Assembly (NCBI RefSeq): GCF_012396365.1
Contig: NZ_JAAXPG010000002.1
Span: 248,001-312,000 of the forward strand
Reading direction: 5' to 3'
Length of the DNA stretch: 64,000 nucleotides
Source of the DNA: Nocardiopsis alborubida
Lineage (GTDB): Bacteria > Actinomycetota > Actinomycetes > Streptosporangiales > Streptosporangiaceae
In this document: positions 2,430 through 52,340 of the stretch, piece by piece
Position numbering within the stretch: position 1 is the stretch's first letter
Layout: every line of letters starts with the position of its first letter
Translations under genes and position numbers: made by a program
The notes under the pieces: generated by a model
Seen by the model: the letters and a program-made list of their open reading frames with translations, nothing else
Database searches by the model: none
What the model was told of the DNA's origin: nothing

Positions 2430-3335
2430 ATGAGCGCGATGGACACCGAGACCTTCGACGTAGCCAGCAGCCTCAAAACCCTTCGCCTCGCATGCACTGC
2501 GGTCGGCCTTTCGATGGCACAGGAGCCTGAACTCATCCGGTTGGGTGAGAACGCGGTCTGGCGCCTGCCGGAGCACCGTCTGGTCGCTCGTGTGGCACGC
2601 TCCATTGATCGTTTCCCCCTCGCGGAACGCGGCGTTCAGCTCGCCCGGTGGATGCACAGCCACCACGTTCCCGCTGTGCTACCCTCCGACGAGGTGGCCA
2701 ACCCCGTGCGTACCGACGATGATCGTGTGGTCACCTGGTGGACCGAGGTCCGCCACCACAGGCCCGCCACCCCCGCGCAACTGGGAGCCGCGCTCCGTGC
2801 CCTGCACGACATGCCACTCCCCACCCCCGACCTCGTCAGCCTTCCGGAGGCATCGACCGTCGACAAGGTCGACCAGCGCCTCGCCGCGGTGAGCTTGACC
2901 GAACCCGACCGGGACTTCTTGCAGAGCATGGCCGCCCGCCTGCACAGGGAGTACACCGATCTCACCTACGACCTGCCTTACGGGCTCGTCCATGGTGACG
3001 CCCACGCGGCGAACCTGCTGGTGACGTCGGACAGTCAACTGGGATGGGTGGACCTGGACGGTGTGGCGATGGGACAACCAGAGTGGGACCTGGTGCTCAC
3101 CCCCATCGAACACGAATGCGGCTGGGTCACCTCGGACGCCTACCAGGAGTTCGTCGATGCTTACGGGTACGACGTCACCACCAGCCCCGCTTACCCGGTG
3201 CTCCGGGAGGTCCGGCTGCTGAGGATGACGTCCTGGTTGGCCCAACTTCCCAGCGCACAGGCCCGTGACGAAGTGACGCGTCGCATCCGGGACCTACGCG
3301 AAGGCACTCCCATCCAAGGGTGGCAGGCGTTCTAA
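2430..3335 (+). CDS. Aminoglycoside/choline-kinase-like phosphotransferase, copy 1
   Basis: A 301-residue member of the APH/choline kinase superfamily, which transfers phosphate from ATP to a small hydroxylated substrate. The catalytic loop reads HGDAHAAN at residues 188-195, followed by the metal-binding WVDLDG about 15 residues later. The PEWDL segment after it is usual for these families. The length is typical. A second ATG (codon 4) could also start it. It is transcribed away from the regulator at 1005-2243 and its stop overlaps the convergent stop of the regulator at 3332-4699. Substrate unknown; antibiotic resistance cannot be inferred from sequence alone. Confidence 0.8.
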   Translation: MSAMDTETFDVASSLKTLRLACTAVGLSMAQEPELIRLGENAVWRLPEHRLVARVARSIDRFPLAERGVQLARWMHSHHVPAVLPSDEVANPVRTDDDRVVTWWTEVRHHRPATPAQLGAALRALHDMPLPTPDLVSLPEASTVDKVDQRLAAVSLTEPDRDFLQSMAARLHREYTDLTYDLPYGLVHGDAHAANLLVTSDSQLGWVDLDGVAMGQPEWDLVLTPIEHECGWVTSDAYQEFVDAYGYDVTTSPAYPVLREVRLLRMTSWLAQLPSAQARDEVTRRIRDLREGTPIQGWQAF

Positions 3336-5810: not shown

Positions 5811-7304
5811 TCAGGAGCTGAGAGCGCGCTCGGTGACATGGTCGCGGAACTCGCGAACCGCCGGCGTTCGGGCGTAGGGCTCCAGTTGCTTCTGGAACCG
5901 GTCGAGGTAGGCCTTGACCCGTGCGGACCGCAACCGTCCGGCCTCGTTGAGGACGCGGGTGGCGGTGGCACAGGCCGTTTCTAGGTCGGGGCCGCCCGGG
6001 CGCATCAGGTGGGCACCAGCGTGGATGAGGCCGGCGAAGGTACGGCTGCGGCGGAAGGCGGCGGGCGCGAGGTCCACGGATTGGCAGGCGTGCTCGGCCG
6101 CTAGAGCTCCGTGGCCCAGGTCGTGGAAGCAGTGGGCGAGTTCGTCGGAAAGTTCGGAGGCGTCGAAGTAGGACATCCACGGCGGCTCTTCGTCTTGGTG
6201 GATGCGGGAGAAGGCGGTCTCCATCTCCTGTAGAGCGCGCGAGCAGGCGCGCTCTTCGCCGAGAGAAGCGAGGGCTCGGGCTTCCATGGCGGCGAGCATG
6301 GCCTGGATGGCGGGGGTGCTGTGCCCTTGGGTGCCGGTTTTGGCAGTGCGGGCGAAGTCGACCGCGGTTCGGTATTCGCCGAGGAAGTTGGCCTGATGGC
6401 TCAACAGGGCCAGAGCCTTGGCTCCCAGGAGCCGGTTCGAGGCCAGATGTGCCAGGTTCAGTGATTGCAGAAAGTAGCGCCGTCCCAGGGCGTGCAGTCC
6501 GGCGTCGTAGGCCATGGCACCGACCTTGGCAGCGAATCTGGCCGCCGCGCTGAACAGGGAGCGGCCGATTTCGGGGGTGAAGTTACCGTGCAGGAGAGGT
6601 GTGACCTCGCTGTTGAGGTACTGGACCGCGGCCGTGCGCGCGTGCCCCCCTCCGAACTCGTGGTCCAGGGCTTCGAACAGGTCACAAGCACGGGTGATCG
6701 CTAGGACGTCGTCGGCTCCCACACTCAACGGCGCCTGGTCGTTGGCCTCGAGTAGGGCGGGAGGGGCCACGATCCAGCGCAGCACAGGGGCGCTGAGGTG
6801 GTCGGCGGGGGTCAGAGCCCAGGTGAGGGGGTCTTCGTGGTGCAGGTCGGCGCGCCAGAGCCGGTGTGCACTGGTCACAGCGCTGCGGCTGGACTCGGTG
6901 AAGAGCTCAACATCCACCAGGGTTGCTGTGTCGGGGCTCTGCGCGGACGGGGTTGGCTCCTGTACCGCGGACAGGGCTGCCTGGCCGGGGGTGGGGGCTC
7001 CCAATCCATGCAGTACACCGTGGACCACGTCGGGATCGGTGAGAGGGCGGCCCTGGCCAGCGCGGCTGATGGTGCTCTGGTGAACACCGCACATCCGAGC
7101 GATCGCCCACTGTGTCAGGCTCGGTATGCGGCGCCGCAGCTGGCGGATCACCTCCCCAGCGTCGGCACTCTCCACCGCACGGGCCACTGCGGGCTCGTCC
7201 CAAAACCACACGGGAACGCATGCGCATCCTCGTGTGCCCTCACCACGGGACCGTCCGCAGTTGCCGCAGATCATCACCCGGTTCACCTGGGCTTTCGTGC
7301 TCAT
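5811..7304 (-). CDS. Zinc-knuckle HTH regulator, copy 4
   Basis: The most divergent paralogue, 497 residues from the ATG read at 7304. A shorter form from the ATG at 7274 would line up better with the other copies; neither has a strong ribosome-binding site. Counting from 7304, the knuckle cysteines are C13, C16, C27 and C29. The HTH (LTQWAIARMCGVHQSTISR) is followed by a changed wing (AGQGRP instead of VERGRP). The C-terminal 350 residues are helical and TPR-like. It faces the roadblock gene across a promoter region full of TATGCA/TGCATA repeats, so it is the likely regulator of the polyketide-type operon. That role is an inference. Confidence 0.75.
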   Translation of the reverse strand: MSTKAQVNRVMICGNCGRSRGEGTRGCACVPVWFWDEPAVARAVESADAGEVIRQLRRRIPSLTQWAIARMCGVHQSTISRAGQGRPLTDPDVVHGVLHGLGAPTPGQAALSAVQEPTPSAQSPDTATLVDVELFTESSRSAVTSAHRLWRADLHHEDPLTWALTPADHLSAPVLRWIVAPPALLEANDQAPLSVGADDVLAITRACDLFEALDHEFGGGHARTAAVQYLNSEVTPLLHGNFTPEIGRSLFSAAARFAAKVGAMAYDAGLHALGRRYFLQSLNLAHLASNRLLGAKALALLSHQANFLGEYRTAVDFARTAKTGTQGHSTPAIQAMLAAMEARALASLGEERACSRALQEMETAFSRIHQDEEPPWMSYFDASELSDELAHCFHDLGHGALAAEHACQSVDLAPAAFRRSRTFAGLIHAGAHLMRPGGPDLETACATATRVLNEAGRLRSARVKAYLDRFQKQLEPYARTPAVREFRDHVTERALSS

Positions 7305-7334
7305 AAAGGGGGTGGTATGACGGAAGCTCCCGCG

Positions 7335-7407
7335 TGCATACTCGTTTATGCACAGGGCATCTCAGAATATGCACAGATGCATAGACCTGGGCATAGATTT
7401 ATGCACA
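7335..7407. promoter_or_regulatory. Array of TATGCA/TGCATA inverted repeats
   Basis: TATGCACA occurs at 7347-7354, 7368-7375 and 7400-7407, spaced 21 and 32 bp apart, close to two and three helical turns. Each copy sits in an inverted repeat: TGCATA-6nt-TATGCA (7335-7352), TATGCACAGATGCATA (7368-7383) and GCATA-4nt-TATGC (7391-7404). The cluster lies between regulator copy 4 and the start of the roadblock operon, as expected of a cooperative operator. Confidence 0.55.
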
Positions 7408-7428
7408 TGCGCGCGCAACAGTGGCCTC

Positions 7429-7887
7429 ATGACGCCTCGGAACAGCCCCTCTACCCAAGGGGATGACACCGGCAGCGACCCCCTGCCCGAGCTGTTGTCC
7501 TCGTTTGTCCACCACCATCCCGGTGTGGAAGGTGCTCTGGTTTTCACGCGCGATGGCCTTATTCGTGCCTTTTCGTCCACCATGCCGTTGGAGGACGCGG
7601 AGCGGTGGTCGGCGATCGCCAGCCAGCTGTTCTCCATGGCGGGCAGTTTCGCCCGCTACGCACAGCGCGGCACGGTGGAACAGCTGCTGCTGCGTATGAG
7701 CGACGCGTTCCTGCTGGTAATGGAAGCAACACCTGCCAGCGGCCTGGTCCTACTCGCCAGCCGCGACACCCAGTTGAAGCAGGCCGCCTTCGACGCGACC
7801 CGGCTCGTGGAGAACCTGCAGGATGCTCTGCCCCAGGAACTGTCGTCGAAGGTGGGGGCACCGTTGCTCACCGGAGTGGCCGCATGA
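7429..7887 (+). CDS. Roadblock/LC7-domain protein (conservon CvnB-like)
   Basis: A 152-residue protein with a single roadblock/LC7 fold (about residues 20-130), as in MglB and in CvnB of actinobacterial conservons, where it partners a small Ras-like GTPase. The segment GVEGALVFTRDGLIRAFSS and the following AERWSAIASQLFSMAGSFAR match the family's first strand and helix. The ATG at 7429 is chosen; upstream in-frame codons run through the operator array. It overlaps the next gene by 4 nt (ATGA), so translation is coupled. No sensor kinase gene (CvnA) is adjacent, unlike a standard conservon. Confidence 0.8.
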   Translation: MTPRNSPSTQGDDTGSDPLPELLSSFVHHHPGVEGALVFTRDGLIRAFSSTMPLEDAERWSAIASQLFSMAGSFARYAQRGTVEQLLLRMSDAFLLVMEATPASGLVLLASRDTQLKQAAFDATRLVENLQDALPQELSSKVGAPLLTGVAA

Positions 7888-8738
7888 ACTCTCTTCTCCA
7901 AGCGCCTGAAGTTCCGCGCCAGAGCGTGCAGATCCGCTGCCCCCAGGTGCAGGTGATGGTGCACTCGATCGTTGCTCGCATGCCCCGCTCGACGCCGCCT
8001 GGTCCGGGCAGCGCCGAGTTGGTCCGCCGTGTCTACGACGCCTGCGCCCAGATCGGTCGCCCGCTCTCAGTCGGAGAACTCGCCGAGCAACTCGCCTGCC
8101 CGCCCGCGGTGGTCGGGGTCGCGGTCAGCGACCTGATCCACCAGCACCGCCTGTGCCTGTACACCGGATCCCACCAGCGTCGCACGGGCCCTGGCCGGTA
8201 CGTGCTGGAGCGGTTGCGCGACCGGCTGCGTGAGCGCGCCCCCTACAGCGCCGACACCGTCAAGTTCGTCGTGGTTGGTGAGGACGACCGCGACGTCACC
8301 ACCTTTCTCACCCACATCAGCGGTGAGCACCCCTTTCCTGTGAGTTCCCAGGAAGGACGCACCGAGGTCGAGGGCGTGGTGAGCCGCGTCGACGCCGACC
8401 TGTACCTGGCCGTGCTGGGTGTGCACCAGGTGCAGGTGTTGCGCGAGCAATGGCCCGACCTGATGCGCGAAGCCGATGGCGCCCTGCTACTCACCCGCTC
8501 TGATGAGCTGACCCGGTCACGCTCAGCGGCCCGGCTGCTGGCCAACCAGGCGTCGGTCCCCTACATCACCGTCGTGCACCTGGCCGACGAGGACGACCTC
8601 GACTCTCCCCGGGTGCACGAGGAACTGCAGTTGGAGGAGATGGTGCCCGTGGTCATGGTCGACATCCACTCCCCCGCCTCAGCGACCACCGCGCTGGCCG
8701 ACCTGTGCACCTGGGCCCTGGACGAAGGAGAGCGCTGA
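7884..8738 (+). CDS. DUF742-GTPase fusion with degraded P-loop (CvnC/CvnD-like)
   Basis: A 284-residue protein that joins two usually separate conservon parts. Residues about 40-105 form a winged-helix DUF742 domain (CvnC-like). Residues from 127 on form a small-GTPase-like domain (CvnD-like). The GTPase Walker A should read GXXXXGK(S/T), but here G132-EDDRDV-T139 has Asp and Val where the Gly-Lys pair belongs. Nucleotide binding is therefore doubtful, although the domain is otherwise full length, ending with a VPYITVVHLAD strand and a VVMVDIHS strand. It is flanked by 4-nt and 1-nt overlaps with its neighbours. A structural partner of the roadblock protein is a plausible role. Confidence 0.7.
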   Translation: MNSLLQAPEVPRQSVQIRCPQVQVMVHSIVARMPRSTPPGPGSAELVRRVYDACAQIGRPLSVGELAEQLACPPAVVGVAVSDLIHQHRLCLYTGSHQRRTGPGRYVLERLRDRLRERAPYSADTVKFVVVGEDDRDVTTFLTHISGEHPFPVSSQEGRTEVEGVVSRVDADLYLAVLGVHQVQVLREQWPDLMREADGALLLTRSDELTRSRSAARLLANQASVPYITVVHLADEDDLDSPRVHEELQLEEMVPVVMVDIHSPASATTALADLCTWALDEGER

Positions 8739-9976
8739 TGACCCGCATCATGGTCGCCGGCTCCGGCCACGCCGGGTTGGGCGTGGCCACCGGCCTACTC
8801 GCCGCCGGGGTGGACGTGGACGTGTTCACCACCCACACCACCGAGGAACTCCTGGGCGGCCACCCGCGGCTGACCCAGCTGACCTTCCCCACCGTGCACG
8901 CGGCGGAGAAGAAGGCGGGCCTGGACCTGTGGGAGCAGATCTCCCCGGTCTTTTCCACCATCGGCTTCACCGTGGCTCCTGGGCAGGGCGAGACGCAGTC
9001 ATTCGTGGGCCACCAGCGCCAGTTGGGCACGGCCGTGGACCACCGGGCCAAGACCGCATACTGGCTGCAGGAGGTCGAGCGCCGCAAGGGCCGCATCCAC
9101 GTCAAGACCGTCACCCGCGAGGACCTGTTCTGGTTCGCCAACAGCGGCATGTATGACCTGGCCATCGTCGCCACCGGCGACAGCGACCCGCACCTGGCAC
9201 CGCTGTTTCCCGCCCAGCCTCAAGAGCGCCCGGCCACCGTGCGCGCCGTTATCCAGGCCCACTTCGAGGGTTCTCCGCCGGGCCCGGACGTGCAGGTGAC
9301 CACCACCCCGGGCGGGGAAATCTTCTGCTACCAGGTGCTGACCGCCAACGGATCGGCCACCTACCCGGAGGTCTACCCGGGCACCGCGGTGCAGATCTAC
9401 GCGCGCGCTGGCGGCCCGCTGGACCCGGCCACCGAGAACATCGAACCGGGACAACGCCCGGAGAACCTGCAGCGGATCGGGGACTTCGCCCACCAGGTCC
9501 TGGCCACCTACACCCCCGAACTGGCCGAATGGTGTGCCGGGGCCGACCTGGTCCCGCGCTCCCAGCTGCTGCGGTACGTGCACCCGGTGGTGCGTCAGCC
9601 CGTCGTCACCGTAGGCACCACCCCCGTGCTCGGGGTCGGTGACGCGGTGCTGACGGTGGACCCGACCTCGGGTCAGGGTGCCAACGCCTCCACGCTCGCG
9701 GCCACCACCGTGGTCGACAAGATCACCGAACGCCTGGCTCAGGGCGGTGCGCTCGCCGACACGCACTTCCTCACCTCGGCCTACGGCGCCTACTACGCCG
9801 CCCACGGCCGCTACACCAGCGTGTTCAACAGCCTGGTCACCGACTTCTGGAGCGGTACGCTCCCGCCCCACATGGGCGAGAGGTTCGGCCGCAACTTCTC
9901 CGACCAGGCGCAGGCCGACCGCATGGTCGTGGGCTGGGACGACCCCTCCACCCTGGGGTGGCTGCTCAACCCCTAA
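8738..9976 (+). CDS. Styrene/indole monooxygenase-like flavoprotein (StyA family)
   Basis: A 412-residue single-component FAD-binding oxygenase-like protein. The dinucleotide-binding motif GSGHAG is at residues 8-13, and the second FAD contact VLGVGDAVLTVDPTSGQGAN lies in the last third. The middle resembles StyA-type enzymes (alpha/beta Rossmann plus substrate domain), which need a separate flavin reductase; none is seen nearby. The start ATG overlaps the previous stop by 1 nt and follows GAAGGAG. In this operon it probably tailors or primes the polyketide-like product by epoxidation or hydroxylation. Substrate unknown. Confidence 0.75.
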   Translation: MTRIMVAGSGHAGLGVATGLLAAGVDVDVFTTHTTEELLGGHPRLTQLTFPTVHAAEKKAGLDLWEQISPVFSTIGFTVAPGQGETQSFVGHQRQLGTAVDHRAKTAYWLQEVERRKGRIHVKTVTREDLFWFANSGMYDLAIVATGDSDPHLAPLFPAQPQERPATVRAVIQAHFEGSPPGPDVQVTTTPGGEIFCYQVLTANGSATYPEVYPGTAVQIYARAGGPLDPATENIEPGQRPENLQRIGDFAHQVLATYTPELAEWCAGADLVPRSQLLRYVHPVVRQPVVTVGTTPVLGVGDAVLTVDPTSGQGANASTLAATTVVDKITERLAQGGALADTHFLTSAYGAYYAAHGRYTSVFNSLVTDFWSGTLPPHMGERFGRNFSDQAQADRMVVGWDDPSTLGWLLNP

Positions 9977-10036
9977 CCCCCGCCATCACCCTTTTCCATC
10001 CCTAGAGCGGCCGAGCCGCCGATTCGAGGTACCCCC

Positions 10037-10723
10037 ATGCCCAAAACACCCCCCGCCACCACCAACGAGGCCAACCCCAGCGTCTACAACCGCCTGGTCA
10101 TGCGGCTCGTCTACACCGTCTGGGTCCACGGGATCTGCCACCCCCTGGCCTGGGGGATCTCCAACCGGTGGATCCGCAACGCCTACCGCGTCTGGTCCGG
10201 CCCGGTGCACCTGACCATCGGCCCCGGCAACGGCCGCTTCCTGCGCCACCTGCCCGCGCGAGTGCGGGTGCTGCACCTGATGGACCTCAACCCGCAGTGC
10301 CTGACCATGGGGGCGCGCGTGGCCCGCCGTCGCAGCCGGGTTCTGCACGCCCACTTGCAGGACCTGCTCGCGCGGTGGAAGGACCTGCCCGACAACAGCG
10401 TGAACAGCATCGACATCATGATGGTGCTGCACTGCCTGCGCGGGGCGTCCTTCGCCGACAAGGCCGCGTTCATCGCCGAGGCCCATCGTGTGCTTGAGGA
10501 CGGCGGGGTGCTGTTCGGCGCCACCATCGTCGCCTCCGGCACCGGGGTGCGGGTCAACCGCTTCGCCCGCCTGCTCATGGGCGTCTACAACGGTGCCAAG
10601 AACGTCTTCTGCAACGCCGGGGACACCTCCGACGAGCTCTTGGCCCAGCTGCGGATCCACTTCCCCGACGTGGACTTCCAGGTGCAGGGCTGCACCGCGA
10701 CCTTCGTGGCGGTGAAGCGATGA
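10037..10723 (+). CDS. SAM-dependent class I methyltransferase
   Basis: A 228-residue methyltransferase with the SAM-binding motif LTIGPGNGRF near residue 57, an acidic residue after the second strand (LMDLNPQ) and the post-motif ADKAAFIAEAHRVLEDGG. The N-terminal YNRLVMRLVYTVWVHGICHPLAWG helix pair resembles membrane- or carrier-associated methyltransferases found beside polyketide synthases. It overlaps the KS-AT-ACP gene by 4 nt (ATGA). It probably methylates the polyketide product or an intermediate. Regiochemistry cannot be inferred. Confidence 0.75.
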   Translation: MPKTPPATTNEANPSVYNRLVMRLVYTVWVHGICHPLAWGISNRWIRNAYRVWSGPVHLTIGPGNGRFLRHLPARVRVLHLMDLNPQCLTMGARVARRRSRVLHAHLQDLLARWKDLPDNSVNSIDIMMVLHCLRGASFADKAAFIAEAHRVLEDGGVLFGATIVASGTGVRVNRFARLLMGVYNGAKNVFCNAGDTSDELLAQLRIHFPDVDFQVQGCTATFVAVKR

Positions 10724-13638
10724 GCACTCCCACACACCCCGAGGTGCCTGAGTCGGCGGTGGCCGTGGTCGGCATGTCCTGCCGCCTGCCCGGCCACATC
10801 CGCTCCCCGCACGCCCTTTGGGACGCGCTGCTCGATGGCCGGGACCTGGTCACCGACCGCACCGAGGACCACCCGCGCGCCGACATCCTGCCCGCGGCCG
10901 TCCTCACCGACGACGAGCAGGGCTTCGACGCCACCCATTTCGGCCTCTCGCCTACTGAGGTGGCGGCGATGGATCCCCAGCAGAAGATGCTGCTGGAGCT
11001 GGTGGATGAGGCCTTCCAGGACGCGGGCATGGCCTTGGCCGACTGGCGCGGGAAGCGGGTGGGGTTGTGGGTGGGTTCCTCCTGCCTGGACCAGGCCCTG
11101 CTGCGGCTGGGCCCAGGCCAGGGCGGCACCATGGTCGACACCGCCGGTGCCCTGCCCTCCATGCTCGCCAACCGCATCTGCCGCCACCCCCACTTCGACT
11201 GGACGGGCCCGTCCGAGGTCATCGACACCGCCTGCTCGGCGTCGCTGGTCGCCGCGCACCGCGCCCGTCAGGCGCTGGTGTGCGGCGAGGTGGACCTGGC
11301 CGTGGTGGGCACTGCCAACACCCTGAGGTTGGACACCCACACGCGGATGTTCGCCCGCTCCGGGGTGCTCTCCGACGACGGGCGCGTGCACCCCTTCGAC
11401 CGGCGCGGCACGGGGTTCGTGCGCGGTGAGGGTGCCGGGGCGGTGGTGCTGCAGCGAGCCGCCGACACCTTCGCCACCGGGACGCGCCCGCGCGCGCTGG
11501 TGGTGGGCAGCCTGACCAACTGCGATGGTGCCGGGTCTCCGATCGGCACCCCTAACGTCGCTGGGCAGGTGGACCTGCTCACCCGCGCTTACGCCCAGGC
11601 CGGGCTGGACCCACGAGACGTGGACTACGTCGAGGCCCACGCCACCGGCACCGCGGTCGGCGACGCGGCCGAGTCCCGCGCTCTGGGCAAGGTGCTGGGC
11701 CGGGCCCGTGATGAGGACGATCCGCTGCTGGTGGGCGCGGTCAAGCCGAACGTGGGCCACCTGGAAGGTGGCGCGGGCCTCATCGCACTGATCAAGGTCG
11801 TCCTGTGTCTGGAACACCAGGTCATCCCACCCGCCATCCACCACACCACCCCGTTGCCGGTGCTGCGCCGGATGGGAGTGGCCGTGCCCACCACCGCCCG
11901 CCCCTGGCCCCGCCGCGGTCACACCCCGACCGCGGGGGTGTCGGCGTTCGGGTTCGGCGGCACCAACGCCCACCTGATCCTCCAGCGAGCCCTGGCCGCG
12001 GTCGACCCGCCGGCTGGTCGCACCGACGGGGCCGACCGCTCGCACGTCGTGCCGGTCTCGGCCAGCAGCCCTGCGGCGCTGCGCCGGACCGCGGCCACCT
12101 GGTCGGCGGCCGTGCAGGACGAGGTGGCGGTGCGGGAGGTGGCCTCGACCGCCGCGCACCGGCGCGACCACCACACCGGGGCGCGCGCGGCCGTGGTCGC
12201 CTCCATCCCGCCCCTGGTGCGCTCCGGACTGGACGCCCTGGCCCAGGGCCACACCCACCTGTCCCTGGCCGGACCCCGCCAGCCGGTGCACAAGCCGTTG
12301 GTGGTGTTCGTCTACCCCGGCCACGGCGCCCACCCCAGCACCCCGGCCGGCCCCCACGGCATGAGGGCGGAGCCGGTGTTCACCGACGCTCTGCTGCAGG
12401 CGCGCACGGCCTTGCTCGTCGAGCGGCTGGAGATCGATCCCGCACCCGGACTGGCGCGGATACAGCCCTCCCAGTGGGCATGGCAGGTGGCCGCCACCGC
12501 CCTGCTGGGGTCGTGGGGCATCACCCCGGACGTGGTGGTGGGCCACTCCCTGGGTGAGATCGCCGCCGCCCACACCGCCGGGGTGCTGAGCCTGCAGGAC
12601 GCCGCCCTGGTGGTGGCCCAGCGCAGCCGCCTCCTGGAACAGACCGCTGAGCACGGGGAGCTGTTGGCCACCTCGTTGGACCCGGTGCGAGCGCACGAGC
12701 TGGTGCGGTCCTGGCCCCGGGTGGCGGTGGCCTCGATCAACGCGTCCCACGCCACCGTGTTGTCCGGTCCGGTCTCCGATCTGGCCGCGGTAGATCAGCA
12801 GCTGTCCCAGCAGGGGGTGTGGACGCGCCGCATCGCCGACGCCCCGCCCGCGCACAGCCCTCTGGTGGCCGAGCAAGCCCAGCAGCTGCCCGACCTGGTG
12901 AAGTCCATCCGGGCGCGCCCGGCCAGGACGGCGCTGTGGTCCACCGCCACCGCCGCCCGCGTACAGGGACAGGAGATGGACGCCGCCTACTGGGGACGCC
13001 AACTGCGCTCCCCGGTGCTGCTGCACCAGGTCATGCGCCACCTGGCCGGACAGGAGCGCCCCATCGTCGTGGTGGAGGTCGGTGCCCGGGCGGTGCTGGC
13101 CGGTGCGCTGGCCGCCACCCTGTCTCAGACCCAGCGGCGCTACGAGGTCGACCCGCCCCTGGTCACCACGTCCGGCCCCGCTGCTCCGCGCGAGAACTTC
13201 CTGACCGCGCTGGGGAACCTGTACACCTTCGGTCTCGACCCGATCTGGCCCACACCCCGCACCGCAACGGCGGTGTCCTTGCCGTTGCGGGCCTGGACCC
13301 ACCAGGACCCCAGTGCGCCCCCCGCAGCCGCTGAGGCGGTCCGGCTGGGTCCGCTGGATCCTGACCAGGCGCGCGCGGTCATCGCTGAACAGGTCATCTC
13401 CCTGGTCCACGGCTTGGCGCCCCAGGGCGGCCCGGATCTGTCCACAGGCACCGTGCTGGCCGAGGTGGGGCTGGAGTCCCTGGCGCGAGCACACCTGCAC
13501 ACCCAGCTCATCGCCCACCTGCCCGACCTGGCGGGGCTACCGGCCGCGGCCGTGCACCGGGCCACCACCACGGGCGAGCTCATCGACGCGGTGATCGAAC
13601 ACTGGTCGCCCTCCCACACCCACCTGTCCACCTCCTGA
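10720..13638 (+). CDS. Type I polyketide synthase, KS-AT-ACP, active sites intact
   Basis: A 972-residue single-module synthase. The ketosynthase (about 1-430) has catalytic C172 in DTACSAS, H307 in HATGTAVGD and H347 in KPNVGHLEG, and ends with GFGGTNAH. The acyltransferase (about 525-800) has S610 in GHSLGE. Its specificity region reads DAPPAHSP where YASH or HAFH are usual, so the extender unit is not predictable, and the N-terminal GQGXQ is changed to GHGAH. The carrier domain has S920 in the ESL motif. There are no KR, DH, ER or TE domains, so at most one condensation per turn and no reduction or release by this protein. It is followed 18 nt later by a dead relative. Confidence 0.85.
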   Translation: MSTPTHPEVPESAVAVVGMSCRLPGHIRSPHALWDALLDGRDLVTDRTEDHPRADILPAAVLTDDEQGFDATHFGLSPTEVAAMDPQQKMLLELVDEAFQDAGMALADWRGKRVGLWVGSSCLDQALLRLGPGQGGTMVDTAGALPSMLANRICRHPHFDWTGPSEVIDTACSASLVAAHRARQALVCGEVDLAVVGTANTLRLDTHTRMFARSGVLSDDGRVHPFDRRGTGFVRGEGAGAVVLQRAADTFATGTRPRALVVGSLTNCDGAGSPIGTPNVAGQVDLLTRAYAQAGLDPRDVDYVEAHATGTAVGDAAESRALGKVLGRARDEDDPLLVGAVKPNVGHLEGGAGLIALIKVVLCLEHQVIPPAIHHTTPLPVLRRMGVAVPTTARPWPRRGHTPTAGVSAFGFGGTNAHLILQRALAAVDPPAGRTDGADRSHVVPVSASSPAALRRTAATWSAAVQDEVAVREVASTAAHRRDHHTGARAAVVASIPPLVRSGLDALAQGHTHLSLAGPRQPVHKPLVVFVYPGHGAHPSTPAGPHGMRAEPVFTDALLQARTALLVERLEIDPAPGLARIQPSQWAWQVAATALLGSWGITPDVVVGHSLGEIAAAHTAGVLSLQDAALVVAQRSRLLEQTAEHGELLATSLDPVRAHELVRSWPRVAVASINASHATVLSGPVSDLAAVDQQLSQQGVWTRRIADAPPAHSPLVAEQAQQLPDLVKSIRARPARTALWSTATAARVQGQEMDAAYWGRQLRSPVLLHQVMRHLAGQERPIVVVEVGARAVLAGALAATLSQTQRRYEVDPPLVTTSGPAAPRENFLTALGNLYTFGLDPIWPTPRTATAVSLPLRAWTHQDPSAPPAAAEAVRLGPLDPDQARAVIAEQVISLVHGLAPQGGPDLSTGTVLAEVGLESLARAHLHTQLIAHLPDLAGLPAAAVHRATTTGELIDAVIEHWSPSHTHLSTS

Positions 13639-13656
13639 ACCGGAAGAACGCCTGAC

Positions 13657-16119
13657 ATGACATCCCGGGTCCAGCAGCAGACCGCCACCAACGCGGCGCT
13701 CATCGGTATGAGTACGCGTCTGCCCGGCGCGAGCACCCCGGCCCAGCTGTGGCGGCTGCTGCTGGACCCCACCCAGGCCCACCAACCGGGGGTGGCGCAC
13801 GGGCCCATCACCGCCGAGCTGCTGCGCCAGCTGGTCGCCGAAGCGCTCGCTGATGCCTCCCTGCCCACCCGCACACTGAAGGGCTCCCCCACCGGGGTGT
13901 ACGTGTGCACCCACCCCGACGCCTACGCCGACCCCGACCTGGCCGCATCCCTGAGCGACTACCTGGGCCTGGCCGGGCAGGCGCGCACCGTCTCCGAGGC
14001 CACCGCGGTGCCGTTGCTCCACCAGGCCCACTACGACCTGCGCGTCCACGCCGTGGACCGGGCCATCGTCGTCGCCTTTGACGAACGCGACGACCTCACC
14101 CGCGCGATCGCGCTGGTGTTCACCGCCACGCCCCTGGTCGCTCGGCACCGGGCCTACGCCCACATCACCGGTACCTGGACCACGGCCACCCCGCTCCAGG
14201 ACGGTGGGCACGTGCAGGTGATCAGCCACGCCCTGTACCAGGCCAGGTGCGGCTTCGACCGGGTGTGGTTCTGGCACTCCCCCACCGCCGACCCCGCGCT
14301 TCCCGGTTCGGTCGTCTTGGCATCCGACCAGCGCGGGCGCAGCCCCCAGCTGTGCGCCCTGCCCGAAGCGCTGTCCGCCCCCGGCAGCGTGTCCGGCCTG
14401 GTCTCGGTGACGGCCACAGCGCTGGCTCTGCACCACCGCGGTCTGCCCGTTCCCGACGGCGCGGTCGACGGTGCCGTGCCCCCTTTCGATCCCTGTGAGG
14501 TGCATGTGGCCGGGTCCTACGACAACTCTGCCCCGCGGCTGTCCGCGACCGTGCTCACCAGCGCACCCCGCCTGCCTCTGCCCACCCACCACGATCCGGT
14601 GTCTCTGCCTCAAATGTGTCCCGTCTCCGCGTCCTCCCTGACCGCCCTGACCCAGGCCGCCCGTGCGTGCGCCGAAACCACCCCAGCCGCCGGCAACATG
14701 GCCGCGCTGGCCGACACCGCTCTGGAGCACACCGACCACCACCCCCTGCGCGCGGCCGTGATCAGCGACAATCTCGGTGAGGCGATGCAGGGCTTCCGCT
14801 CGATCGAGGATGGCGCTCCCAACCACCACGTGATCGGCCCGCGTGCGGTACCTGCGGTGCCGCCGCGGCTGGTCTACGTCCTGACCGGACTGGCGGATGT
14901 GCATCCCAACGCTGGCACCGAGCTCATGCGGCTGAGCGAGTACGCCGAGGCGGTGGAGGAGGGGCGCGCGGCGCTGGCCGAGCACACCAACGCGCCGGTG
15001 TGGGGTCCAGGGGAACGGCTGCTGAGCGTGCAGCACCGCCACCAGGCCACCTTCCTCACCCAACTGGCGCTCACCGCGGCCTGGCAGGCGCGCGGTCTGG
15101 TTCCGGACGCGGTGGTGGGGTGCGGCGCCGGGGAACCGGCCGCCGCCGTGGTGGCCGGGGCGCTGTCGGTGCGCGATGCCGCCCGGGTCGTGGTGGCGCG
15201 CAGCACTGCCTTGGTCAGCCTGTCCGCAGCCTCGGTGCTGCTGGTGTACGCCTCGCGGGAAACGGTCGCGTCCCTGCTCGCTCCGGTGCGCGCGCGGGTC
15301 CATGTGGCGCTGCATCTGCACGCACGGGCCTGGTGCCTGGCCGGTCCCGCTACCGACCTGACCGCGCTGGCGCACACGCTCCAGAGCCGGGGCGATCACG
15401 CCCGGCTGCTGCGCGGGGACGCGGCCCACACCCCGGCGGCGGTCAAGCTCACCCCTCGGCTGCGGCAGGCACTGCGCGGGCTGCGCCCCCGCCCGGCCGA
15501 CCGCGCTCACCTGGTCACCGCGACCCCGCGCCCGGTCGGACGCCCCCTGTTGGACGCTGCCTACTGGGCCAGCCAGGTCGCCGCTCCCGCGCACCTGGGC
15601 GCGGCGCTGGGCCTGGCCACCGAGGCCGAGCGCCCCAGCCTGCTGGTGGAGGTCGCCGCCCGGCCCACCCTGTCCCGCGCCGTGCTGGACACCGTCGAGG
15701 CCCGTCACGACGTCGTGTCGCTGGCATGTGACCCGGGCCAGTTCGCCCACGCCCTCGGCGAGCTCTACACCCGCGGGCACACACCCCGGCCCGCGCACAG
15801 CCGCGCCAACGCCCACCTCGTCCTACCGCCCGTCGATGTCGCAGCCGAAAAAGACGCCCCGCTCCTTGGCGCGCCCGCCCCCGAGCACACGCAGGACCAC
15901 CTGCTGGACCTGGTCAGCCGCATCGCCGACGCCGACGGCACGGTCACCCCGGCCCGTACCTGGGCCGGGCTGGAGCTGGGCGAGTACGACCTGGTGCGGC
16001 TGGTCTGCGACCTGCGCCAGGTCTGGGCCTGGCGAGATCTGACCACCGCCGACCTGGACCCACACCAGCCGCTGGCGGTGTGGGCCAAGGGCCTGGCCAC
16101 CCGCCTGGAGGCAGCGTGA
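13657..16119 (+). CDS. Catalytically blank PKS-like protein (pseudo KS-AT-ACP)
   Basis: An uninterrupted 820-residue protein with the domain order of its upstream neighbour but no catalytic residues. The KS part starts normally (AALIGMSTRLPGASTPAQLW), yet the nucleophile segment reads SEATAV with no cysteine, and the HATGT, KPNVGH and GTNAH motifs are missing, so the domain is shortened to about 325 residues. In the AT the motif GHSXGE is GCGAGE (488-493), with the serine replaced by glycine. The C-terminal carrier-like segment has GEYDL instead of a GXDSL serine. It has no stops or frameshifts, which argues for selection as a structural partner, loosely like a chain-length factor. That function is an inference. 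Confidence 0.7.
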   Translation: MTSRVQQQTATNAALIGMSTRLPGASTPAQLWRLLLDPTQAHQPGVAHGPITAELLRQLVAEALADASLPTRTLKGSPTGVYVCTHPDAYADPDLAASLSDYLGLAGQARTVSEATAVPLLHQAHYDLRVHAVDRAIVVAFDERDDLTRAIALVFTATPLVARHRAYAHITGTWTTATPLQDGGHVQVISHALYQARCGFDRVWFWHSPTADPALPGSVVLASDQRGRSPQLCALPEALSAPGSVSGLVSVTATALALHHRGLPVPDGAVDGAVPPFDPCEVHVAGSYDNSAPRLSATVLTSAPRLPLPTHHDPVSLPQMCPVSASSLTALTQAARACAETTPAAGNMAALADTALEHTDHHPLRAAVISDNLGEAMQGFRSIEDGAPNHHVIGPRAVPAVPPRLVYVLTGLADVHPNAGTELMRLSEYAEAVEEGRAALAEHTNAPVWGPGERLLSVQHRHQATFLTQLALTAAWQARGLVPDAVVGCGAGEPAAAVVAGALSVRDAARVVVARSTALVSLSAASVLLVYASRETVASLLAPVRARVHVALHLHARAWCLAGPATDLTALAHTLQSRGDHARLLRGDAAHTPAAVKLTPRLRQALRGLRPRPADRAHLVTATPRPVGRPLLDAAYWASQVAAPAHLGAALGLATEAERPSLLVEVAARPTLSRAVLDTVEARHDVVSLACDPGQFAHALGELYTRGHTPRPAHSRANAHLVLPPVDVAAEKDAPLLGAPAPEHTQDHLLDLVSRIADADGTVTPARTWAGLELGEYDLVRLVCDLRQVWAWRDLTTADLDPHQPLAVWAKGLATRLEAA

Positions 16120-16205
16120 GAACGCCTACCCGCCCCGCTGCCGAGACCTGATGACCACACCCCTCAAGGCGCTGACCGTTCTCCCGTGACCCCGGACGGC
16201 GCCCC

Positions 16206-16248
16206 GGGTGTCCTCGCCCCGACGTGGGATCCCGGGGCGAGGACACCC
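16206..16248 (+). terminator. Perfect 15-bp hairpin between PKS-like and HAD-like genes
   Basis: GGGTGTCCTCGCCCC pairs exactly with GGGGCGAGGACACCC across a 13-nt loop. There is no U-tract, so it may be an attenuator, an mRNA-stabilising structure or a non-canonical terminator. A related stem starting GTCCTCGGCCCC is at 22548-22586. Confidence 0.5.
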
Positions 16249-16275
16249 ACCACCCACTCCCGCTGGAGGTAGACC

Positions 16276-16998
16276 ATGACCCGGCCCCTGGCCGTGACCA
16301 CGCTCGTGGTCGGCTACGACCGCATCCTGAGCGCAGAGACCGACCACGACTACCGACCACACGGCGGCCACCTGCGCGCGGTGCTGGCCGCGCACGACGT
16401 GGACCTGCCCGCCCAGGTGCTCTCCGACTACGACCAGCACCTGGTCATCTGGCAGCGCCTGGCCCACGCCACCGCGCTCACCGACCTGATCAGCATGGTG
16501 TTCACCCGCCACGGCATCGCCTGCCCCCTGCCGATCGCGGAGCTGGCGGTGCAGGTGTGGGAGCGGGCCGGGGACGCCCCGGTCACCCCGCAGGCCGCCT
16601 ACCTGCTCGCCCGGCTGGCCGAGCAGGGCTACCAGGTGCTGGTGGCGACCAACACCTGCCGCCCCCACACCCAGCGCGCCAAGTCGGTGGCTGACGCCGG
16701 GCTGGGTGACCTGCCCCTGATCACCTCCAGCCAGCTCGGCGTGGCCTCCCCCGACCCGGCGTTCTACGAGCACGTCCTGCGCCGCTGCTCCTCGGCGCCG
16801 TCGCGGGTGGCGTGGGTGGGCGCCGACCCCATGCACGACGTGGCCGGGCCCCGCGCCCACGGCATGCACGCCGTAGCCCTCCTGGCGGCGGACGCCACCG
16901 CCGAGCGCCAGCAGGCGCTGCGCTGCGGCGCCCACACGGTCCTGTCCGACCTGGCTGAGTTGCCCGACCTGCTCTTGCCGCTCCCGGCACGCCCCTAA
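16276..16998 (+). CDS. HAD-fold protein lacking catalytic residues
   Basis: A 240-residue protein with the layout of a HAD-family phosphatase: helical cap after motif I, QVLVATNT (motif II), PDPAFYEHVL (motif III region) and VGADPMHDVAGPRAHGM (motif IV). Motif I should begin DXD but reads LVVGYDRIL, so the nucleophilic aspartate is Gly13. The motif III lysine is replaced (ASPDP) and the first motif IV aspartate is Ala. Catalysis is therefore unlikely, though binding may remain. The start has GGAGG 7 nt upstream. It lies after the PKS pair and before whiB, and may be an accessory or regulatory protein of that pathway. Confidence 0.65.
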   Translation: MTRPLAVTTLVVGYDRILSAETDHDYRPHGGHLRAVLAAHDVDLPAQVLSDYDQHLVIWQRLAHATALTDLISMVFTRHGIACPLPIAELAVQVWERAGDAPVTPQAAYLLARLAEQGYQVLVATNTCRPHTQRAKSVADAGLGDLPLITSSQLGVASPDPAFYEHVLRRCSSAPSRVAWVGADPMHDVAGPRAHGMHAVALLAADATAERQQALRCGAHTVLSDLAELPDLLLPLPARP

Positions 16999-17034
16999 CC
17001 CCCGAGTCCCTTCTCCCCCAGGAGCTGGACAGCC

Positions 17035-17352
17035 ATGGACGCACCCTTCACCGCAGAGGCCAAGTGCCGTGATCTCGATCCCGACGCCCTGTTCGTGCGG
17101 GGAGCACGCCAACACGACCTCAAGCCCATGTGCCGCAGATGCCCCGTGCAGACCGATTGCCTGGCCGAGGCGCTGGACGGGCGGGTCGAGTTCGGCGTGT
17201 GGGGCGGCATGACCGAGCGCGAGCGCCGCGCCCTGCTGCGCCGCCGCCCCGAGGTGACCAGCTGGAAGGAGCTGCTGGAGAGGGCACGGACGGCCTACGA
17301 GCAGACCCACCCCACCCAGACCCGCAGTCCACTCTCCGCCACCGCTGTCTGA
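17035..17352 (+). CDS. WhiB-family iron-sulfur transcription regulator
   Basis: A 105-residue Wbl protein. Cysteines C11, C33, C36 and C42 are the four [4Fe-4S] ligands in the usual CXnCX2CX5C order, and the GVWGG turn and a basic ERERRALLRRR stretch follow. Wbl proteins bind sigma-A and act as redox- or NO-responsive regulators. AGGAG lies 9 nt before the ATG. It starts 36 nt after the HAD-like gene and precedes a chain of closely packed small genes, so it may control this region. Which Wbl subclass is not clear. Confidence 0.9.
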   Translation: MDAPFTAEAKCRDLDPDALFVRGARQHDLKPMCRRCPVQTDCLAEALDGRVEFGVWGGMTERERRALLRRRPEVTSWKELLERARTAYEQTHPTQTRSPLSATAV

Positions 17353-17665
17353 GAGGAGCCGAAGCCGTGACGCCGCGCCCTACCACCAGGACCGTTCCCT
17401 CCCGGGGGAGCGCACGCTCGATGCCGACCAGTACCACCACGCCAAAGCCCTGGATGCCGAGTACCCGCACTGGTGGATCCTGTGGGCTCCCTACCAGCGC
17501 GCCTATCTCGCCTTCTTCCTCGGCCCCCACCCCGTGGGCCCGGTGGACGCTGGCACGGTCGAGGAGCTGCGCGAGCAGTTGGCGCACGCTGAGCACCAAG
17601 CAGCCCTACCACCCGCGGCTGTGTGGCGGTCGGGCCCGCAAGCTCCGATCGTCGGCGGCAGGTGA
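17351..17665 (+). pseudogene. Small conserved protein, start lost or frameshifted
   Basis: From about 17405 a clear coding frame reads ERTLDADQYHHAKALDAEYP followed by HWWILWAPYQRAYLAFF, a pattern of small actinobacterial proteins that often sit next to regulatory genes. It ends with TGA at 17663-17665. In this frame there is no ATG, GTG or TTG between the whiB stop and the conserved part. The well-placed GTG at 17367, with GAGAGGAG upstream, is in another frame. Either a small indel separates start and body, or translation begins at CTG 17345. The function of the family is unknown. Confidence 0.5.
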
Positions 17666-17671
17666 GTGGTG

Positions 17672-17953
17672 ATGGCGGGCTTCAACCAACCCCAGCGGCA
17701 CATGCTGTCTGCACTGGTCGACGCTGCCTTCCAAGCTGGGCTGTCACCGCGCCAGCAGGGTGGTCAGCTGTTCCTGTCGCGGTTCGGGCATCGCGTGCAT
17801 GTCCGCCAGGACGCGGGCCAGTGGTGGGTCGATGCTCCGAACGGTGAGGCTGTTGGCCCGATCGAGGACGAGGACGCGCTCATGGTGGCCGCGGCCGAGG
17901 TGCTTGACACGGTCAGTGCCCGCTCACGCCAGACGCTGGTACAAGGCCGGTGA
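17672..17953 (+). CDS. Small protein of unknown function
   Basis: A 93-residue protein with no recognised family. Visible features are an N-terminal helix (RHMLSALVDAAFQAGL), a strand-rich middle (GQLFLSRFGHRVHVRQDAGQWWVDAP) and an acidic helix near the end. The ATG at 17672 is chosen because AGGTGAG lies 6 nt upstream; two GTG codons just before it are alternatives. It follows the small gene at 17351-17665 by 6 nt and precedes the next by 4 nt, so all are likely cotranscribed with whiB or the methyltransferase. Confidence 0.6.
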   Translation: MAGFNQPQRHMLSALVDAAFQAGLSPRQQGGQLFLSRFGHRVHVRQDAGQWWVDAPNGEAVGPIEDEDALMVAAAEVLDTVSARSRQTLVQGR

Positions 17954-17957
17954 CCCC

Positions 17958-18146
17958 ATGACCACGTCTTCTCCTCCCACATCCGGTACCGAGAGCGCCA
18001 ACGACCGCCGCGCGGCGGCCCACCAACCCCTTGCCGGGTTGCCGCGCGGCCTCCAACCTGCCCCGGCAGTCACCTGCCGAGCCTTCCTGGAGGATGCGCG
18101 CACGGTGTGGGGCCGCCCTGGCTACACCGAGGCGGCGCCCCGGTGA
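17958..18146 (+). CDS. Small protein, translationally coupled to methyltransferase
   Basis: A 62-residue Ala/Pro/Thr-rich protein of unknown function. Evidence that it is real is contextual: it starts 4 nt after the previous gene and its stop overlaps the GTG of the methyltransferase gene (GTGA). The only segment with a hint of structure is the C-terminal CRAFLEDARTVWGRPGYTEA, which could be a short helix. Confidence 0.45.
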   Translation: MTTSSPPTSGTESANDRRAAAHQPLAGLPRGLQPAPAVTCRAFLEDARTVWGRPGYTEAAPR

Positions 18147-18925
18147 ACGCGCACACAACCGCACCCGAGCCCTGCAGCGTCGCCGAGGTACAAGCGGCAC
18201 TGCTGGGCGTCTCCACCACACCACGCGCCGAGGCCTACGCCCGCATGATGCACCAGGTGGTGCCGCGGGCGTGGGGGTTGGCCCATGCCGGACGCGACTG
18301 GGTCGGCGCCCTCCTGACCCAGCTCCGCCCCTGGGGCCTGACCCAAGTCGCTGATCTGGGATGCGGGATGCCCCGCCGCACTCCGGCGACCGCGTCGCAC
18401 CCGGTCGACACCCACGAGTACGCGCTCGCAGTCCGGATGCGCCGGTGCGCCTACCTGGACATCGACCCGGCCGTGGTCGAACACCGCCGCGCAGGGCTCG
18501 CCCCCTACCAGGGCGGCGCCGCACTGGCCGACCTCACCGACCTCGCCCAGGTGCGGGCCGGGCTGGCCGCCTGCGATATCGACCCGCATCAGCCGACCGT
18601 GCTCATCCTCGGATGGGTGCTAGCCCTGCTCGACGACGACCAGGCGCTCAGTGTGCTGGCGTCTCTGCCGAATCTGGTGGCCCCTGACAGCTACGTGGCC
18701 GTGTCCCACCCCACCGGGCGAGGGCCGTGGTCGGCGCTGATGACCCGCACCACCGGCGCGCTCGTGCAGTTCCGCTCCGCCCCGCACCTGCTCGACCTGA
18801 TGACGCAGAGCGGGATGGTGCCCCACCAGGGGCCCACCCCGGTGACGGCCTGGCCGACGCCCGCCTGCCCCACCCCGGGTACCGACGTGCTGTGCGCCTT
18901 GGCCCGGATCGGAGGCCAGCGGTGA
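18143..18925 (+). CDS. DUF574-type SAM-dependent methyltransferase
   Basis: A 260-residue protein of the actinobacterial S-adenosylmethionine methyltransferase family (Methyltransf_19/DUF574). It shows the family pattern: DLGCGMPRRTPATASHPVDT, then CAYLDIDPAVVEHRRAGL, and a later VLILGWVLALL strand. These genes typically sit beside XRE/DUF5753 regulators, as here, and their substrates are mostly unknown. The GTG start overlaps the preceding stop, and its own stop overlaps the GTG of the regulator downstream, so the three are one translational unit. Confidence 0.8.
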   Translation: MNAHTTAPEPCSVAEVQAALLGVSTTPRAEAYARMMHQVVPRAWGLAHAGRDWVGALLTQLRPWGLTQVADLGCGMPRRTPATASHPVDTHEYALAVRMRRCAYLDIDPAVVEHRRAGLAPYQGGAALADLTDLAQVRAGLAACDIDPHQPTVLILGWVLALLDDDQALSVLASLPNLVAPDSYVAVSHPTGRGPWSALMTRTTGALVQFRSAPHLLDLMTQSGMVPHQGPTPVTAWPTPACPTPGTDVLCALARIGGQR

Positions 18926-20049
18926 TCGACGAACGAAAGCTCGGCCAGGCCTTGGCCGGGTTACACCGCAACAGCACCGCCCAGGAGTTGCGACTCGTCT
19001 ACGAACAGGGCGCCACCACAATCCAGGTGGCCGCTGCCACGGGCCGCTCCCTGGGGTGGGTGCACAGGCGGCTGCACGCGGCGAAAACACGGATGCGTCC
19101 GAGCGGGCCGCAGGGACAGAAGCGCCCGCTCCCCAACTTCGCCCCCACGCCTGCGGAGCAGGAGCACACCGATTCCCTCGCCGGGCCCTCGGCCACGGTG
19201 CAGCACCATGTGCTCACCCACCGGCTGCGTGAGCTGCGCACTCAGGCCGATCTGACCCAGGTCCACACCGCTCGCGCTGTGGGCGTCTCGCACGCCACCC
19301 TCATGCGGGCCGAGAACCCGCAGGCGTCCGTGACCTTGGACGTGCTGCGCTCGCTGTGCGCCTGCTACGAGGCGTCGCAGCAGGTGCGCGAGGAGCTCAT
19401 CCGGCTCTGGTGGGGTAGTCGTGCCCCCCAATGGTGGGAGGTGCAGCGCCTGCACGTGCCCGAGGGTGAGCGCGCCGCGGTGGGGTTGCGGGGCGATGCC
19501 CGCCAGGTCTACGGCTGGGCCGACCTGCTCATTCCCGAGCTGATGCAGACCGAAGGGTATGCGCGCGCCATCGAGCGCTTCTTCCACGACGACCCAGCGC
19601 ACCTGGAGATGGCGGTGTCGGTGCGCCTGGCCCTGCAGCGGCGCGTGCGCCGACGCGGAATCGACCAGCGCTACGTCGTCGACGAGACGATCCTGCGTAA
19701 GTGGTGCGGCGGCACCCAGGCGATGGCCGAACAACTTACCGCCCTGCGCGCGCTAGCCGCTCGTGGACGGCTGCGGGTGCTCTCCCACGCCAGCGGCCAC
19801 TTCTTCGACTCACCGTTCGAGCTGTGCTCAATCCCCGGACTCGCCGATGAGGCCCTCTACTTCCCCGGGATCAGGGAAATCCACATCGGTGATCCACCAC
19901 CTCCCACCTACTCACTGCGGTTCCTGCGCAACGCTCTGGAACGGCTGTGGGGGTGGGCCGAAGACACCTCCGGCAGCGTGGCCCTCATCGACGACGCCCA
20001 CGCCCGCCTGCTCGCTGCAGGCCCCGTGCCCGCGACCGCTACGACCTGA
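18922..20049 (+). CDS. XRE-family regulator with DUF5753 (Scr1-like)
   Basis: A 375-residue regulator in three parts. Residues about 8-60 hold an extra HTH-like unit (AQELRLVYEQGATTIQVAA), residues 90-150 an XRE-type HTH (LTQVHTARAVGVSHATLMRAEN), and the rest is a DUF5753 ligand-sensing domain with its marker LIPELMQTEGYARAIE. Such proteins control nearby small DUF397 or methyltransferase genes in Streptomyces-like genera. The GTG start is set by the 4-nt overlap with the methyltransferase stop; longer upstream starts would run inside that gene. The first HTH is unusual for the family. Confidence 0.8.
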   Translation: MIDERKLGQALAGLHRNSTAQELRLVYEQGATTIQVAAATGRSLGWVHRRLHAAKTRMRPSGPQGQKRPLPNFAPTPAEQEHTDSLAGPSATVQHHVLTHRLRELRTQADLTQVHTARAVGVSHATLMRAENPQASVTLDVLRSLCACYEASQQVREELIRLWWGSRAPQWWEVQRLHVPEGERAAVGLRGDARQVYGWADLLIPELMQTEGYARAIERFFHDDPAHLEMAVSVRLALQRRVRRRGIDQRYVVDETILRKWCGGTQAMAEQLTALRALAARGRLRVLSHASGHFFDSPFELCSIPGLADEALYFPGIREIHIGDPPPPTYSLRFLRNALERLWGWAEDTSGSVALIDDAHARLLAAGPVPATATT

Positions 20050-51607: not shown

Positions 51608-51632
51608 GAACCGATAGATGAGATCTGGCCCC

Positions 51633-51667
51633 GCAGGGGAGGCGGTCGATACGACCACCTCCCCTGC
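51633..51667 (+). terminator. Hairpin after the transfer operon
   Basis: GCAGGGGAGG-C-GGTCG pairs with CGACC-A-CCTCCCCTGC over a 3-nt loop, with one mismatch pair. It begins 26 nt after the stop at 51607. No clear U-tract follows. Confidence 0.65.
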
Positions 51668-52315: not shown

Positions 52316-52340
52316 CGTCAGTGTCGTGGGCGAGGTGTTG

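Follow-up and report, generated by a model that had tools for sequence, protein, structure and literature searches.

A catalytically dead but selectively constrained KS-AT-ACP protein encoded beside an active-looking type I synthase in Nocardiopsis

Why would a genome keep a type I polyketide synthase (PKS) module that is dead in all three of its domains? The question is raised by a locus of Nocardiopsis alborubida, in a stretch of 64,000 nucleotides of contig NZ_JAAXPG010000002.1 (positions 248,001 to 312,000; hereafter, the window), where the gene for an active-looking protein with ketosynthase (KS), acyltransferase (AT), and acyl carrier protein (ACP) domains, P0001, is followed by the gene for a catalytically dead KS-AT-ACP paralogue, P0002. 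Non-catalytic KS-like partners help to set the chain length or the product of type II PKSs, and those known are single KS proteins or keep at least one live domain. PfaB of the polyunsaturated fatty acid (PUFA) synthases, as described in an excerpt of PMC12895367, is a KS-like non-catalytic partner that helps decide the product, with one domain still live. We find that P0002 is under purifying selection; the phenomenon at this locus is real, selected, and unusual, while its mechanism is one that we infer. A type I synthase module without one live domain, yet almost as constrained as its live neighbor, would mean that such a scaffold is worth keeping by itself, and it would offer a natural part for altering the output of small iterative synthases.

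Catalytic residues and predicted fold

Which catalytic residues remain in the two proteins? In alignments, P0001 has every residue expected of a type I KS-AT-ACP synthase—KS Cys-His-His, AT Ser-His, and ACP Ser—and a preliminary description of this DNA, made from the sequence alone, had correctly named C172, H307, H347, S610, and S920. The same six residues are kept in 20 of 20 KS-AT-ACP proteins, P0001 counted, from three clades (A, n = 4; B, n = 4; C, n = 12). At the columns of those five P0001 residues, P0002 has a gap, a gap, Ala241, Gly490, and Glu776, and it thus falls outside the residue pattern of a type I KS-AT-ACP synthase. The preliminary description was right about these five losses but went too far in calling P0002 devoid of catalytic residues: one of them, the AT His591, is retained, as is Arg515 of the AT pocket.

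Are the losses shared by other proteins? A deep protein search gave 84 matches, and P0003 to P0008, at 62–93% identity, were the P0002-type proteins among the best 7995 candidates scored. In P0002 and these six relatives, the KS Cys and the first KS His are absent and the second KS His is replaced (7/7 in each case), the AT Ser has become Gly within GCGAGEPAAAV (7/7), and Glu has replaced the ACP Ser in all six members that extend to the ACP. His591, Arg515, and Cys489, which adjoins the former Ser site, are equally invariant (7/7). Such a set might point to catalysis of a new kind, in which Cys489 could act with the retained His591. We consider this most improbable, because Cys489 fills the slot of the pre-nucleophile His, a placement that would not suit an AT elbow, and because a reduced homologue in another genome (G022, described below) has Ala at that position.

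P0001 and P0002 share only 26% identity, and the pseudo-KS of P0002 is trimmed to ~300 residues, versus ~430 for the KS of P0001. According to the alignment, the ~130 residues that are gone include the loops bearing the active-site motifs, and the best Pfam match to the pseudo-KS spans residues 14–41 only. In the AlphaFold2 model of P0002 (predicted local distance difference test, pLDDT, 85.9; predicted template modeling score, pTM, 0.87), a KS-AT fold extends over residues 2–732, and the protein as a whole is predicted to keep the KS-AT-ACP fold. The domain order that had been read over 820 residues is therefore upheld by prediction, with a shortened first domain.

Selection on the dead gene

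Is P0002 a pseudogene? The preliminary description had argued for selection from a frame without stops. In DNA of 74% GC, however, that argument is weak: as a consequence of the high GC, antisense frames also stay open for 759 codons across P0002 (13537-15816, minus strand) and 977 codons across P0001 (10585-13518, minus strand), and neutral simulation yielded means of only 2.6–8.0 stops at divergences of 0.1–0.5, with 14 of 800 runs stop-free. We therefore rejected the absence of stops as a sole argument for selection.

The conclusion itself was reached by another route. We estimated omega (dN/dS) with the GY94 codon model for pairs among the window genome, Nocardiopsis exhalans (G015), and Nocardiopsis metallicus (G007), and for control genes. 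For P0002, omega is 0.173 (window–G015), 0.122 (window–G007), and 0.149 (G015–G007), and omega = 1 is rejected in each pair (twice the log-likelihood difference, 2dlnL, 235–278); a dN/dS near 1, the possibility raised in the preliminary description, is thereby excluded. Among the controls, omega is 0.139 for the clade A partner (two pairs), 0.143 for clade B (one usable pair), 0.150 for the methyltransferase, 0.083 for the flavoprotein, and 0.075–0.095 for clade C. P0002 is thus under purifying selection, with a constraint about equal to that of its live partner and weaker than that of clade C, and a pseudogene is ruled out by codon-model values of 0.12–0.17 across three species, like that of the active partner (0.14). 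By domain, omega is 0.13–0.145 for the AT and 0.07–0.22 for the linker plus ACP; for the neighboring HAD gene it is 0.10–0.26. Five pairs were set aside because synonymous sites were saturated (pseudo-KS window–G007 and G015–G007; KSA G015–G024; KSB G007–G021 and G011–G021). NG86 estimates, which are inflated by codon bias, are 0.44–0.52 for P0002 and, between the window and G015 or G007, 0.41–0.42 for the clade A partner and 0.56–0.58 for the methyltransferase and flavoprotein.

Which part of P0002 is best conserved? Across five diverse family members, hand-picked AT-pocket blocks are 0.956 identical versus 0.820 for random AT blocks (0/5000), in a test that is partly circular, whereas the former KS sites lie at the pseudo-KS average (0.67–0.73 vs. 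0.726). The region around the lost KS Cys scores 0.708, against 0.726 for the remaining pseudo-KS, and carries a 2-residue gap in two relatives; conservation across the family is poor where the KS dimer axis would lie. This pattern leans toward a role for the AT half of P0002, which a chain-length-factor reading did not foresee.

Distribution and exchange of partners

How widespread is the dead gene, and does it stay with one partner? Full-length P0002 genes occur in 3 of 40 genomes of the genus (the window genome, N. exhalans, and N. metallicus), where they align end to end in a single frame, and G022 has a reduced form. A scan of genome contigs yielded a single P0002-type locus, that of N. 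metallicus, and a distant AT from Streptomyces. In the loci fetched for matching P0001 or P0002 (L039 is excluded from counts as a copy of L025), a P0002-type gene follows 4 of 27 KS-AT-ACP genes. Most homologous loci, then, lack the second gene, one has a 15-codon stub, and none of those seen is riddled with stops; the preliminary description had named absence or such decay as evidence against its claim. The flavoprotein and methyltransferase genes are both present in 25 of the fetched loci, and the surrounding KS-AT-ACP cassette is thus common in Nocardiopsis. To call the whole a new biosynthetic architecture was therefore too wide; what is added here is the dead KS-AT-ACP protein plus a dead HAD-fold protein.

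In an AT tree, the seven P0002-type proteins and the reduced G022 form make up one clade (98/97), which is sister to active clade C (100/99) and not to clades A and B of its neighbors; the branch of the G022 form is long and its position is marked unsure. That form (L058:7408-8652) is a 414-codon frame with the KS-AT linker, a partial AT from which the His and much of the pocket are missing, and an ACP, and has no KS; it carries Glu at the carrier site and Ala at the Cys489 position. Outside G022, the protein that it matches best locally belongs to active clade C (45%, vs. 40% to P0002), and we keep the reduced form with the P0002 family because of the tree support, its Gly and Glu sites, and its HAD neighbor. 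No second reduced form was found, the other 14 matches listed being active-size frames or the three full P0002 genes.

The P0002-type gene stands behind a clade A partner in the window and in G015 and behind a clade B partner in G007 and G022. P0006 of G015 (partner A) is sister to P0007 of G007 (partner B; 100/99), with the P0002 of the window (partner A) outside that pair, and this grouping across partner clades implies at least one partner change, or an exchange between two loci; there would be two partner changes if the G022 form is correctly placed. Between G015 and G007, identity is 96% over the HAD and WhiB stretch, 77% over the next 2.3 kb, and 94% over the following 5.6 kb, and that of the dead gene is 75%. 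N. metallicus also has a clade A cassette (L049) that shares ~96% DNA identity with that of N. exhalans along 9.8 kb; in a 3.3-kb stretch further upstream, identity is 99.4%. Its clade A synthase has intact catalytic residues, and the dead gene behind it stops after 45 bp (15 codons; L049:12983-13027), in which it does not differ from the beginning of its G015 counterpart. The stub is followed by two open reading frames (ORFs; L049 13097-14295) that by eye resemble an IS3-type transposase pair, and the next 7 kb of L049 hold no convincing further piece of the dead gene. N. exhalans and N. metallicus thus provide a ready comparison: near-identical clade A cassettes, with the dead partner present in one and a stub in the other.

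Which gene accompanies P0002? Among the 40 genomes, the HAD gene occurs in all four with a P0002-type gene versus 1 of the 36 without (Fisher P = 5.5e-5); the lone genome is G024, where the HAD gene follows a clade A synthase. The HAD protein of the window has Gly in place of the nucleophile Asp (motif I) of HAD hydrolases. Among nine distinct HAD proteins, the Asp is lost in eight (that of G022 keeps it) and the motif III Lys in six (alignment). A HAD fold is predicted by AlphaFold2 (best pLDDT 81; five models, 40–81) and by matches to HAD structures. We suggest, tentatively, that the dead PKS module and the dead HAD protein may form an accessory unit of two pseudoenzymes, moved among different active KS-AT-ACP synthases and reprogramming the product by binding alone.

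Comparison with known systems

Does P0002 resemble a known non-catalytic partner? KSQ and KS0 domains of modular PKSs have no condensing activity, keep most KS motifs, and act within the assembly line. The pseudo-KS of P0002 is likewise without condensing residues, but it has lost all three KS catalytic residues plus their loops, and the KSQ hallmark of Cys replaced by Gln in an otherwise intact KS is absent from the alignment.

The chain-length factor (KS-beta) of type II PKSs and the chain-length-factor domain of PfaC have a KS fold without the catalytic cysteine and are encoded right after an active KS; the factor has full KS length, pairs obligately with its KS, and has no AT or ACP. A type I counterpart of it was the role first suggested for P0002, and it is now weakly supported. 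Taken strictly, with the pseudo-KS heterodimerizing with the active KS and lining its tunnel, the analogy looks distinctly unlikely to us. P0002 does have a predicted KS fold without the active-site cysteine, its gene is adjacent to and co-directed with that of P0001, and the thiolase core is predicted to survive the loss of the KS residues, including strand 109–113, aligned to a strand that we take to sit at the KS dimer axis. On the other hand, the motif-bearing loops are gone and the lost-Cys stretch is no better conserved than its surroundings; an AT and an ACP are attached, making P0002 an accessory whole type I module; and the pairing is not obligate, since KS-AT-ACP synthases of the same clades occur without P0002 (clade A in G024; clade B in G021 and G011). 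In addition, PfaB, with a similarly short pseudo-KS, is a monomer in the excerpt of PMC12895367. Adjacent, co-directed genes and a fold predicted to match that of the partner family would also suit a dominant-negative throttle, in which mixed P0001/P0002 dimers reduce synthase output, an idea made very unlikely by the poorly conserved dimer-axis stretch, by the low identity to P0001, and by the sister relationship of P0002 to another clade.

By analogy, PfaB is the nearest known case. As far as the excerpt of PMC12895367 describes it, PfaB is a monomer that has an active AT and a short pseudo-KS without Cys-His-His, and it decides which PUFA is finally made. P0002 shares with it a stand-alone subunit in which such a shortened pseudo-KS is followed by an AT, beside an active synthase. 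It differs in that PfaB, as given in that excerpt, consists of KS' and AT only, with an active AT (GxSxG), whereas the AT of P0002 is dead (GCGAG, 7/7) and is joined by a dead ACP. The seven P0002-type proteins had no PfaB-named family among their matches, at E values up to 10, in NCBIfam, a library expected to contain a PfaB model.

What might the cassette make? By description, it resembles the nocapyrone cluster ncpA-D of Nocardiopsis alba, a small type I PKS cluster with a methyltransferase that is assigned to pyrones (PMC4110758; excerpt of PMC8155685). No dead synthase is mentioned for that cluster in PMC4110758 or in the excerpt of PMC8155685, and the excerpts of PMC4113818 and PMC8706298, also on nocapyrones, contain no gene data. 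The product of the active partner would be a short iterative polyketide, which the flavoprotein would oxidize and the methyltransferase methylate; a short pyrone-like compound is at most a fair guess. Among the open-licence PubMed Central papers listed for such cassettes, for type I chain-length factors, and for dead PKS modules, no title or abstract opening described this cassette or a full-length type I module that is dead.

Proposed role of P0002

What, then, might P0002 do? We propose that it serves the active KS-AT-ACP synthase encoded 18 bp upstream as an accessory subunit without catalysis of its own, a role centred on the dead AT and carrier of P0002, and we put the probability of this at roughly one-half. 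P0002 would dock on P0001 via its AT, linker, and carrier surfaces; its pocket, unable to form an acyl-enzyme, would hold or exclude an acyl thioester or the carrier protein of the partner; and P0002 may thereby alter which starter or extender is chosen, how long the chain becomes, or how it is released, without catalyzing a step—a PfaB-like logic, but with the AT dead as well.

Several observations weigh against this proposal. The pseudo-KS is the least constrained part of P0002, with an omega of 0.264 (one usable pair) versus the lower values of the AT, and the strict Ser/Arg/His neighborhoods of the AT reach 0.90, a borderline value that 273 of 5000 random sets match. The alignment behind the AlphaFold2 model consists mostly of active relatives and so favors an active-type fold. 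P0008 terminates ahead of the ACP. The clade A synthase of G024 and those of clade B in G021 and G011 live without any P0002-type gene in the genome, and the partner lineage thus does not require P0002. Finally, both the reduced G022 homologue and the 15-codon stub of N. metallicus could be products of decay. Together with the truncated P0008 and a presence in only 4 of 40 genomes, these two would fit a relic: what is left of an earlier second synthase, in slow decay since the cluster was reassorted. Such a relic is already disfavored for the full-length form, and we find it very improbable overall, given a whole-gene omega near that of the active neighbors, dead motifs that are fixed, and three orthologues in one end-to-end frame.

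The conserved AT pocket, with its His and Arg, might instead belong to a ligand sensor or sink: the dead AT would bind an acyl-CoA or the product and, together with WhiB and the dead HAD protein, feed back on expression of the cluster or protect the cell. The HAD gene does co-occur with P0002, and the genes for WhiB and another regulator adjoin. We hold this to be unlikely, as a WhiB gene likewise comes after active cassettes that have no P0002 (L050, L055), sensing offers no evident reason to keep a full KS-AT-ACP protein, and the G022 form has lost much of the pocket.

Gene order and other features of the window

How is the locus arranged? Gene order in the window is roadblock, DUF742, flavoprotein, methyltransferase, P0001, P0002, HAD-fold protein, and WhiB (Table 1). 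The 3' end of the methyltransferase gene overlaps the start of P0001, and a GGAAG-like site precedes the ATG of P0002 in the 18-bp gap between the synthase genes. WhiB directly follows the HAD gene in all three loci with a full-length dead synthase. When 7000-18000 was scanned for promoters and terminators, no signal rose above chance.

A conservon comprises cvnA-D (excerpt of PMC8510531), and the operon here likewise opens with roadblock and DUF742 genes, labeled by Pfam in the window and, for roadblock, with the L033 copy as reference in the compared loci. Among the genes scanned at 5811-10720, however, no CvnA kinase or CvnD GTPase was detected, so that of the conservon core once proposed for this locus only the CvnB- and CvnC-like proteins stand.

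Table 1. Features of the locus, in window coordinates
Feature	Position	Strand	Evidence and remarks
Roadblock/LC7 protein (conservon CvnB-like)	7348..7887	+	PF03259, E 1.8e-7 on 7582-7884; start codon uncertain
DUF742/HTH protein (conservon CvnC-like)	7926..8738	+	PF05331, E 3.9e-6 on a longer frame, 7605-8735
Flavoprotein monooxygenase, styrene-monooxygenase-like	8738..9976	+	NF045732 StyA, E 4.2e-22, under curated cut-off; nucleotide-binding motif kept (alignment)
S-adenosylmethionine (SAM) methyltransferase	10037..10723	+	PF08241, E 9.2e-10; IGPG motif kept (alignment)
P0001, active-looking KS-AT-ACP, clade A, 972 aa	10720..13638	+	C172, H307, H347, S610, H712, S920 intact
P0002, catalytically dead KS-AT-ACP paralogue, 820 aa	13657..16119	+	Alignments, omega, AlphaFold2 model
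Former AT nucleophile elbow GCGAGE, P0002 residues 488-493	15118..15135	+	His slot is Cys and Ser slot is Gly in 7/7 family members
Glu776 at carrier-serine site of P0002	15982..15984	+	Glu in 6/6 ACP-bearing family members and in the reduced G022 form
HAD-fold protein without nucleophile Asp (Gly) and motif III Lys (Ser)	16276..16998	+	PF00702, E 6.5e-10; alignment; AlphaFold2
WhiB-type regulator	17035..17352	+	PF02467, E 1.8e-22; synteny
Methyltransf_19 protein, syntenic right flank	18245-18925	+	Pfam, synteny
XRE/DUF5753 regulator, syntenic right flank	18922-20049	+	Pfam, synteny

Several further features were observed around the compared loci and elsewhere in the window. An APH-like protein gene (2652-3335) and its neighbor (3332-4249) match the flank of L058, the G022 locus, at 65–68% identity, so the neighborhood shared by the two is wider than the cassette; L058 itself also has, by eye, a lantibiotic-dehydratase-like ORF (L058:345-2390). 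A large helicase gene with ResIII and helicase-associated domains (26155-29283) is partly common to the right flank of the G015 locus. An ORF at 34119-35027 matches part of the Cse1 model (PF09481, E 2.9e-11), a possible remnant of a CRISPR type I-E system. A topoisomerase gene (42505-44730; PF01131, E 2.7e-31) lies in DNA of lower GC, as do large ORFs without a Pfam match and then an integrase-like ORF, recognized by eye and also without a Pfam match (45897-54040); the stretch from topoisomerase to integrase is possibly an integrated element ahead of an operon that, judged by eye, is suf-like.

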